The translations under genes and the position numbers were made by a program. A DNA stretch of 64,000 nt from Daphnia pulex (lineage: Eukaryota > Arthropoda > Branchiopoda > Diplostraca > Daphniidae). The stretch spans positions 1,510,501-1,574,500 of the forward strand of contig NC_060028.1 in assembly GCF_021134715.1 (NCBI RefSeq). The letters run 5' to 3'. The notes under the pieces are model-generated. The model made no database searches and was not told where the DNA came from. It was given only the letters and a program-made list of their open reading frames with translations. Below, piece after piece: positions 36,935 to 40,130 of this stretch (positions within the stretch are counted from its first letter, which is position 1; each line of letters starts with the position of its first letter).

Positions 36935-39900
36935 CTAGTTCTTCAAACTTGCTAATCCGTCCTGGAAGCCGAGTTCTTTGATCAGCTGTTCGGCGTCGTA
37001 GAGAACGTCAAAGACTTTCCGAGTCAGGAACGAGTTACCGCGGAGAGCGATCCTGTTGAGCCTCTGGATGCACCGCCAGGTGGCTGTGAAATGTTCCAGG
37101 GCGACCTTGCCGTTTGCGGCCAGATCCTTCTCCAGCACTTTGATGAGATCCCGACCTTTCGACTTGATGTCCTTCCACTTGATTTCGGCTTCGTTCCTTT
37201 GGATTTTGCCGAGATCGGGCGAGACCTTGGTCACCTTCTCGACCGACACCCAGCGGTAGGGCTGGTTCGAGTGCATAATCAAATTGCACTGGTCCGGGCA
37301 GACGGAGCAGTAGCCGGTGACGGTCGACTCGTAAAGATCCTCCGAATTCAAATGTCCGTCCTCGACCGGTTCCTCCTTGAAGAACGCGTCGTGACAGGTG
37401 ACGTAGCAGCGGTTGCAGTTGTAGGCCCACTCTCCGGCCGGAAGCTCGACCTTCTTCTTCATTTCCACCACAAAACACTCGTCTTCCTCTTCGTCCGTCG
37501 ACTGGATCTGCGAGTCGCAAAAGACGATCATCTGCTTCGCCTTGTCCATCTCCTTCATCTTGCCGTGTCCGATTTTGACCAGCGACTCCAATCCGTCCGT
37601 CACCGCTTCCATCTGCTTCCGCTCTTGCAGCACCTGTTTGGTCAGCGACAGCGATTTGGGATTGGTATTGTCGGCCAGGGCCGTGCAGAAGCGCTGGATC
37701 ACTTCTAGCCATGAGCCGGTGTCGCCCAGGTGGTTGAACGGCTGCCAGTTGTAGATGCTTCCGGCCATGTCCTTGCCGAACATGGACATGAATGATTGGT
37801 CGACGACGGCTTCTGTGACAACATTACAAATCATGTCCAGCTGCTGGATGCCTCCGTCCTTCTCCATCGCGCCCAGCAACATTTTGGCAACGTTCTGGTC
37901 TCTGAAATATTGCGAGTCGTTGGTGACGGTGTCGTAACTTGGCGCGGCGACGATCGTGATGGAATACGATACGCGGAAGCTAAAGGTGTGGTGGATGTCG
38001 TAGACCTTGACGCCGTTCGTTTCTTCTTCGTCGATCAACTGGAAACGGAAACTGTCGTCCTGCTCGACACCGAAGATAAAGTTGACGATTCCGTTGATGA
38101 ATTTCGACCGATTCGATCCGTCGGCGCCCAGCACCAGGACCGTCCGGTGCTCTGCCAGCTCATCGGCAAGGCCGAAAGAGAACCGCTCGAAAGTGGAATC
38201 AGACTCGGCTGATCTGATGAGTGGGATGGCGTACACATCCATCTCGTTCTGGTTGCCAATCTTCTTGCATCTTTTGATTAGCCTCTCGGCGAAACGAAGT
38301 TTTCTCGTCGACTCCAAAAGTGTTTCCGGAATTTCAGTTTCATCTTGTTCAGTCTCAGTTTGATCTTCAATCACTGGTTGGCGACGTGAAAGAGGACCCC
38401 ATGGTCTACCGTTTTTGAACGAACCTCCTAATAAAAGAAATATTTAATGTTTAAGCGAAAATCGTGTGATGTGTCAATCCAAAACGTACCGGAAGTTCTT
38501 TTAATAGCGGCGGTTTCAGATGGTGCAGTTGAATTTGATGGACTGCTGATAATTTCAGGCATTGCAGTTGGCTCACTCGCTGGAATAGATTCGTCATTTT
38601 GATCAGAATCTATCGAACATTCAAAAATATTTAGAAACTATAACGATCGCTTTGATGAAAATCAACTTACCAGTTATTTGTTCGACTGTCGAAGAATTGT
38701 TTCCGGTAAAAGACTCAACGACATCCCTCATAGCAGTGTCGGTGGTTTCATCCGCGATTTGGCAAGGGACCGGAGCTTGTGTAGCTGTCCGATTTCCTGG
38801 CCTATTTGATTTGGCGATTGGATTCAAGTACTTTTGCTTGTGTCGTCGGTTGGCGAACCAGACGCGCACCACTTTCGCTTTCAAACGGAGAGAACGGGCC
38901 AGCGAGACGATCGCCTTGAGCGAAGGCTTGGGGTCTTGGTCAAAGTGTTTCTCCAGCGCATCCTTGAGCGATCCTTCGATCAACGTCCTCTTCCTGGACG
39001 TCTTGGACTGACGGGGCTGACAGCTGGTGAAACGAACGTCAGACGGGACAGTCGAATCCTCCTGCTCCGGCGATTCGACAGAATATTCAATTTCAGGCAT
39101 CTCATTATTTGTCTCCTCACTTATTGAATTGGTTTCGGCTGTTGCTTGTCCAGGTGTTTGATCTTCTATTGAAATTTTTGTAAAAATAATTGTAATATTA
39201 CGTCACAGTTGTGAGAAGGATCGTTTCGACGTACCAGCTAAGGAAATTTCACTTTCAACGCTGTCCAACGAAGGACGTTCCAAAGGATCCACACCAATAC
39301 CGCTCAAATCTGCTAAACATTAAAAGGATAATTACAATTAACTCAATTACGAAGCTGAGATTGTGAATAACTAACCTGCCGAGTTATTTCCGTAGACAGA
39401 TTCATCCGCAATGTCGCCGCTCCTCAAAACTCGTGAAGCTGACAGTCGAGTTTGTCTCATGGGCGTCATTAAAGTGGTAAACTTCTTCATTCGTTTTTCC
39501 TTGCAGCGTCGGTTGCCGAACCAGGTGCGCACTACTTCCGCTTTCATCCGCAGAGAATCGGCCAACCAAGCGATGGTCGCCAGTGACGGCTTGGGTTCCA
39601 TTGCAAAGTGTTTCTCCAGAGCATCCTTGGGCGATCCTTCCAGCACCGCCCTTTTGTTGGGAGTGCCAGACGAGACGGTCGAGTCCTGGACGCTCGGCCG
39701 AAGCGAGTCCTGGACACTCGGCCGAAGCGAGTCCTGGACACTCGGAGACAATTCAGCTGCAAATAAAAGAAATTGAGTACAATGTTCATATTTAGTGATT
39801 TTGGTGATGATAAGGACCTGTTGATTGAACTGGCGACAAGTTGGCGGAATCGAGAGGATCCACAATCTCGGCCGGAATCGGTGAGACCGATGTAGTATTT

Positions 39901-40130
39901 GATGGGGTGAGCGGTTTCATGTATCTCTCCCTGTATCGCCGGTTGCAGAACCAAATGCGGACGATTTTCTTTTTAATTCGTAAACACGCCGCCAGTTTGG
40001 CAATGGTTTCCAGCGACGGCCTCTGTTCCATCTGGAAATGCTTCTCCAGCGTGCTCTTGACCGACCCTTGGATCAAAGTTCGCGTCCTACGCTTCTCATC
40101 CGCAATCTTGATGATGCACATATTTTCCAT
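36935..40130 (-). CDS. Three POU-type homeodomains fused to a degenerate septin/AIG1-like GTPase (959 aa)
   Basis: Six exons: 40130-39818, 39756-39376, 39312-39235, 39165-38671, 38609-38490, 38427-36935. Every junction is phase 1 and in frame. Homeodomains lie at residues ~12-72 ([14 protein letters not shown]), ~138-197 ([14 protein letters not shown]) and ~314-373 ([14 protein letters not shown]). W48, F49, N51 and R53 are kept in each, while residue 50 is C, G or A. The second is preceded by a three-fold [12 protein letters not shown] repeat. Exon 6 starts [11 protein letters not shown] and has a domain matching the invertebrate/fish septin-AIG1-like GTPase family: [28 protein letters not shown] and a Cys/His-rich tail ([18 protein letters not shown]). 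The P-loop (GADGSNRSK, ~562-570) lacks the GK[ST] core, and the DTPG motif is replaced by AAPS, so GTP binding is doubtful. The start was chosen after a splice acceptor just upstream; an upstream leader exon is likely. Confidence 0.83.

Follow-up and report, generated by a model that had tools for sequence, protein, structure and literature searches.

A gene family of Daphnia pulex in which POU-class homeodomains appear to be joined to a decayed septin/AIG1-like GTPase domain

The gene and its surroundings

The stretch of DNA that we analysed, called the window throughout, is 64,000 nucleotides long and comes from the water flea Daphnia pulex (G000:C12:1510501-1574500); the genome that was searched for relatives amounts to 133 Mb on 13 contigs. 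On the minus strand of the window, from 40130 to 36935, we rebuilt a gene of six exons that encodes 958 amino acids plus a stop, with introns of 61-69 bp that are GT-AG and phase 1 throughout, a splicing pattern that is predicted from sequence. This model bears out the extent (36,935-40,130), the six exons and the phase-1 joins given by a first-pass annotation of the same letters, whose model thus stands, while its count of 959 residues has to be corrected to 958 plus the stop. The parts of the gene, and the one other feature of its kind that reaches into the window, are as follows.

39818..40130, minus strand: exon 1, with the start codon and homeodomain 1 (39924-40091)
39376..39756, minus strand: exon 2, with a short tandem repeat (SVQDSLRP) and homeodomain 2 (39491-39655)
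39235..39309, minus strand: exon 3, a 25-residue linker behind a NAGNAG acceptor
38671..39165, minus strand: exon 4, with homeodomain 3 (38831-38995), followed by a linker that is homologous to those of the loci C12b and C7e
38490..38609, minus strand: exon 5, a 40-residue linker
36935..38427, minus strand: exon 6, with a PWGPLSRR motif, a degenerate septin/AIG1-like (pseudo-)GTPase domain, a Cys-rich and putatively zinc-binding stretch, and a C-terminal region
36935-36937, minus strand: stop codon, at the end of exon 6
36776..36781, minus strand: possible polyadenylation signal AATAAA, as read from the sequence, about 155 nt past the stop
46..210, minus strand: homeodomain of C12b, whose predicted pseudo-GTPase exon lies outside the window, to the left (G000:C12:1508486-1509937)

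Least secure in the model are the linker exons 3 and 5, neither of which found a homologue among the six linker peptides of relatives with which they were compared. The acceptor of intron 2 (39310-39312, minus strand) is the NAGNAG site, so that isoforms differing by one residue are possible.

A collagen-repeat exon on the plus strand (36255-36479; PF01391, 4.7e-10) adjoins the 3' end of the gene, with Gly-rich frames near it at 35300-36000. The 3' part of the gene and the adjoining collagen-like sequence recur together in a fragment on contig C5 (L017/L022, G000:C5:1066686-1067537) at 92.4% DNA identity over 841 aligned bases; this fragment has a broken frame and an extra stretch, reads as a recent duplicate and is left out of the family counts below. 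Further along the plus strand lie a Timeless C-terminal domain (52715-53212; PF05029, 4.4e-16) and the gag region of a copia-type LTR retrotransposon (59280-60164; PF14223, 1.3e-25). The open reading frame at 51652-52515, ahead of the Timeless domain, has no Pfam match and is presumably part of the same gene. Scans for bacterial promoters and terminators and for tRNAs found nothing in the window and have no bearing on the question of the fusion.

Eight loci with both parts

Genome-wide profile and protein searches brought out eight loci, the window gene among them, at which a homeodomain and a homologue of exon 6 lie on the same strand and in the same order, and all eight have long stop-free frames. 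Four of them, C7a to C7d, are genes within about 10 kb on contig C7, and in each of these one homeodomain, recognised as such by Pfam, shares a single stop-free frame with the C-terminal domain (511, 505, 506 and 469 codons from stop to stop, the last being C7d). The frame of C7d contains no ATG ahead of its homeodomain, and the start must therefore come from an exon further upstream; the C7d protein aligns with those of the other three C7 genes in single stretches (residues 11-461, 3-461 and 4-461 of 469), and a genome search with it yielded no further locus with both parts. At the other four loci, namely the window gene, C12b, C8:7559005 and C7e (C7:11395655), the parts occupy separate exons. 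It is on the one-frame genes of C7 that we base our view that the predicted fusion holds beyond the splice model of the window gene.

C7a and C7c (L009 and L010; G000:C7:11285882-11296238) share a 517-bp tract with 88% DNA identity, while their proteins are 60% identical overall. The contrast suggests gene conversion and means that the C7 copies are not independent of one another. At C12b, an upstream open stretch at about 720-900 of the window resembles the kind of linker that follows a homeodomain and is perhaps the remnant of a lost unit.

What kind of homeodomains are these?

A search of the window protein with the homeodomain profile, which the first-pass annotation had proposed, returns three homeodomains (PF00046; E 1.5e-44 over the whole protein), and in the whole-genome profile scan their separate scores are 59.4, 52.5 and 60.5 bits (cut-off 22.9). 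Together the eight loci contain 10 fused homeodomains, out of at least 123 matches in the genome (150 of 175 candidates were scored). In a tree of 42 of the 43 homeodomains that we extracted from these matches, built on 57 columns and leaving out L045 as too short (29 aa), these ten and three POU homeodomains are split from the 29 others with support of 97/99. Among solved structures, with which two of the ten were compared, homeodomain 3 of the window gene best matches a POU domain protein (E 2.2e-16) and then POU class 3 factor 1 (1.6e-15), and the homeodomain of C7b best matches POU class 3 factor 1 (E 2e-9). Beyond its own cluster the C7d homeodomain is closest, at 57%, to a POU gene at C12:1102866, which has both POU parts within one 570-codon frame. 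We therefore assign the fused homeodomains, by sequence comparison, to the POU class. The POU-specific domain (PF00157), which precedes the homeodomain in POU proteins, has seven matches genome-wide and none at the eight fusion loci, nor does Pfam detect one in the 958-aa window protein, and with the Pfam matches and the tree this upholds the earlier description of three POU-type homeodomains lacking the POU-specific half.

Inside the group of POU and fused homeodomains the branching order is poorly resolved with 57 columns. The fused ones do not form one group in the tree: two changes are needed, they are united in 0% of 200 bootstrap trees, and POU homeodomains separate those of C7a-d from the other six (89/79 and 92/74), so that two captures, or faster change in C7a-d, could each account for the pattern. 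Of the three homeodomains in the window gene, 2 and 3 fall together with the C12b homeodomain (97/86), and 1 falls with the one from C8 (94/83). Across 132 residues, exons 2 and 4 match at 43%, which makes the triple state look like the outcome of an internal duplication added to an older unit.

The residues R5, W48, F49 and N51 are present in all ten fused homeodomains and R53 in nine, with Lys in its place in C7a; in the window gene W48, F49, N51 and R53, positions that we take to lie in the recognition helix, occur in all three. Quite different is the behaviour of positions 47, 50 and 54, which we picked as specificity positions on structural knowledge. Across the ten homeodomains these read ITVVIINVLI, CGAACCKYSS and YCHHQHQQQQ, respectively, as against V, C and Q in the three POU genes that were read (two of them for position 54), giving nine different triplets and the POU triplet in none. 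When every set of three positions in 42-57 is ranked by variability, 4 of 560 equal or exceed this set, itself included, and in 43-57 just 1 of 455 does, namely the set itself; position 42 is more variable still than 47, 50 and 54. As a control, 18 homeodomains of other classes from the same genome show 1.5 bits at position 47 versus 2.05 in the fused ones and 0.91 versus 2.45 at position 50, and 1.97 versus 1.69 at position 54, where the fused homeodomains are thus the less variable.

A departure from the POU set in ten out of ten, together with the absence of the POU-specific half, is also what one might see in homeodomains that have given up DNA and now serve as protein-protein modules. Had DNA binding been abandoned, however, the retention of R5, W48, F49 and N51 in every copy, and of R53 in all except one, would be unexpected, and we consider such a change of role unlikely. 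In our reading, the variation at 47, 50 and 54 around a kept core is suggestive of a changed DNA specificity with DNA binding retained, which is not the same as proof of selection for the change.

A GTPase domain without its motifs

Exon 6 on its own has no Pfam match over the cut-off, and for this reason the label 'GTPase' rests on its close relatives in the genome. Its match to SAPC2_N (E 0.011, under the cut-off) was taken as chance, as were weak Pfam matches, likewise under their cut-offs, to dnstrm_HI1420 in the window protein, Hormone_1 in C7b and HTH_72 in C7c. The four nearest large open frames (1236-1364 codons, on C12 and C3) are 41-48% identical to exon 6, with homology over the GTPase and C-terminal regions. 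One of them, C12:1847380-1850682, aligns in two stretches at 45 and 47% identity and matches PF00735 (Septin) over the cut-off at 4.5e-8 and PF04548 (AIG1) under it at 1.2e-4; it was the frame of the four scanned for other domains and has a fibronectin III domain (fn3) over the Pfam cut-off, where the window copy has homeodomains instead. On this homology the C-terminal domain is assigned a descent from a septin/AIG1-like GTPase. A structure prediction for exon 6 from the single sequence gave a mean pLDDT of 36.9 and a pTM of 0.24 and was not used, so the fold is taken from homology alone.

G1 to G5 are the nucleotide-binding motifs of the GIMAP/AIG1 domain, whose activity is controlled by dimerisation, according to passages of PMC8201404. 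All six intact relatives that we aligned keep GATGSGK[ST]T, DTPG[YF]GDT and the TF[ADS]D segment, that is G1, G3 and G4, whereas the G1 lysine, the G3 aspartate and the G4 segment are lost in all eight homeodomain-bearing copies. In the window copy the P-loop (GxxxxGK[ST]) has become GADGSNRSK, without the lysine, and G3 (DxxG) has become VAAPSYDTV, without the Asp; the G4 stretch is missing from all 11 motif-poor copies in the alignment, the eight with homeodomains included. These losses are why we call it a pseudo-GTPase domain, and from the motifs we infer that GTP binding has been lost in the eight copies. The septin/AIG1-like GTPase domain of the first-pass annotation is accordingly supported in part: the relatives support the descent, but with the G1 lysine, G3 aspartate and G4 missing, a working GTPase finds no support.

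One could nevertheless imagine a transcription factor under nucleotide control, in which the domain has kept the ability to bind GTP or a different nucleotide and acts as a switch for DNA binding or localisation. Descent from septin/AIG1-like GTPases would fit this, as would the two glycines and the serine of the motif that survive in GADGSNRSK, but the loss of the G1 lysine, the G3 aspartate and the whole of G4 in eight out of eight makes a nucleotide switch improbable, and we prefer the pseudo-GTPase.

The three relatives without a detected homeodomain (C12:987683, C12:1439919 and C10:15450939) have the same domain with the same G4 gap and loss of the G1 lysine, although two of them keep the G3 aspartate. 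A domain tree of 17 proteins from the genes behind 79 match rows (eight homeodomain loci, three motif-poor relatives and six intact ones) leaves out weaker relatives and split or broken copies, so that its sister groups are incomplete; in it the eight homeodomain-bearing domains form one clade (99/98), nested in the motif-poor group of 11 (100/100). This nesting suggests that nucleotide binding was already decaying by the time the homeodomain was acquired. The window copy, C12b, C8, C7e and C12_987 retain the Cys-rich stretch; C12_1439, C10_15450 and C7a-d have lost it, and its loss from C7a-d means that it is not essential to the whole family.

Are the genes under constraint?

We computed dN/dS for 11 chosen pairs of C-terminal domains and for all 55 pairs of 11 homeodomains. 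With dS mostly around 1 or above the values are rough: 0.21-0.37 for the domain in 8 of the 28 homeodomain-bearing pairs, 0.09 and 0.12 in two pairs of intact relatives, 0.29 in one pair without a homeodomain, and 0.10-0.83 among the homeodomain pairs, 5 of the 55 being saturated. In addition, pN is below pS in 11 of 11 domain pairs and in nearly all of the homeodomain pairs computed. Roughly, then, both the homeodomain and the pseudo-GTPase domain look constrained.

The same numbers can be turned the other way, since dN/dS exceeds the values of the two intact pairs by a factor of two to four, as might be expected of a decaying gene family whose copies drift and are expressed little or not at all. 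The high divergence among the copies, the broken C5 fragment (outside the eight) and the early ends of C7a and C7b, which stop a few residues short while their matches continue beyond the stop, would also suit such decay. We find it quite unlikely all the same, because long stop-free frames at every one of the eight loci, an excess of pS in all domain pairs and nearly all homeodomain pairs, and DNA-contact residues that have been kept are all at odds with drift.

How might the fusion have arisen?

The four separate-exon loci each offer, among their candidate splice sites, a phase-1 donor downstream of the homeodomain and a phase-1 acceptor immediately ahead of the exon-6 homologue, and the two relatives without a detected homeodomain that were examined for this (C12_987 and C10_15450) have a phase-1 acceptor before the same exon. 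Since the acceptor is also there without a homeodomain, exon exchange at the intron before the PWGPLSRR exon fits, and exon exchange at this phase-1 intron is the likely origin of the fusion, in one event or possibly two. The linker test comprised 24 comparisons, of which four rose above the shuffles: the linker of exon 4, up to its donor, resembles those of C12b and C7e, the score being reached by none of 300 shuffles in either case. The four do not include exons 3 and 5 or the C8 linker, and the C8 linker did not stand out from shuffles when set against that of exon 4.

That the exon model has wrongly merged two adjacent genes, one of homeodomains and one with the GTPase-like domain, is very unlikely indeed: the parts of the window gene do sit in separate exons linked by predicted introns alone, and linker exons 3 and 5 lack a detected homologue, but against this stand the phase-1 sites, the linker conserved up to its donor in C12b and C7e, the adjacency of the parts in the same order and strand at eight out of eight loci and, above all, the four relatives with both in one frame, which strongly favour the single fused gene that was first proposed.

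The motif-poor relatives have a possible partner of their own. The frames upstream of them (L016, L018 and L020) share a region containing Cys, His and Trp, with 29% identity to the first and 21 invariant positions, that is perhaps DNA-binding, and these frames are perhaps part of the same genes as the motif-poor domains. By its look the region could be a FLYWCH-type finger, a reading that we dropped: Pfam searches (E up to 0.1) left two of the regions without a match and gave APD1-4_M at 0.09 for the third, and when all three were combined into a profile and run against solved structures, only tRNA ligase chains came up, at E ~1.

How does the family compare with known proteins?

A limited search of the open-access literature turned up no homeodomain-GTPase fusion among the matches listed, and to this extent the novelty claimed at first holds; PMC8201404, on the GIMAP/AIG1 domain, mentions homeodomain and gene fusion in its reference list alone. 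The family is like the POU class 3 proteins in homeodomain sequence, in the best solved matches (for two homeodomains) and in tree position, and unlike them in having no POU-specific domain, up to three homeodomains, altered residues at 47, 50 and 54 and a partner derived from a GTPase. From the intact septin/AIG1-like GTPases of the genome it differs in the motifs that they keep, and from the motif-poor relatives, two of which keep the G3 aspartate, in having a homeodomain where the frames upstream of those relatives share the Cys/His/Trp region. The Dux, Zfhx and Zhx/Homez families belong to other homeodomain classes, and have other partner domains, than the family described here. They share with it more than one homeodomain per protein, as passages of PMC2211742 relate. 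The partner domains of homeodomains given in those passages are PRD, LIM, POU-specific, POU-like, SIX, MEINOX-related, CUT, PROS and zinc fingers, with none derived from a GTPase (PMC2211742). The idea that a POU type without the POU-specific domain would itself be unprecedented does not survive, since human HDX is of the POU class and has no such domain; it differs from our family in having a single, highly divergent homeodomain of 68 residues, and the passages on it make no mention of a GTPase-like domain (PMC2211742).

What might these proteins do?

We think it probable that this is a family in which a POU-class homeodomain, without its POU-specific half, has been joined to a decayed septin/AIG1-like domain, and that its members are nuclear, lineage-specific DNA-binding regulators that use the pseudo-GTPase for protein contacts. 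On this account the domain would have lost nucleotide binding already, or would have been losing it, when it was joined. The homeodomains, three of them in tandem in the window gene, would bind DNA with specificities shifted from those of ordinary POU proteins, and the pseudo-GTPase domain with its Cys-rich stretch would offer a platform for dimerisation or partner binding with no GTP switch, so that the protein as a whole would act in the nucleus as a regulator of transcription. Rather doubtful, to our minds, is the further idea of lineage-specific regulators whose DNA-recognition residues diversify from copy to copy while the shared pseudo-GTPase unites the proteins, or links them with the genome's intact GTPases, perhaps in an arms race against mobile DNA or parasites.

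With eight members, four of them lacking an intron between the two parts, the family would show that DNA-binding proteins can take up a pseudo-GTPase. It would further provide a compact natural set in which to follow changes of homeodomain specificity at residues 47, 50 and 54 when the POU-specific half is no longer there.
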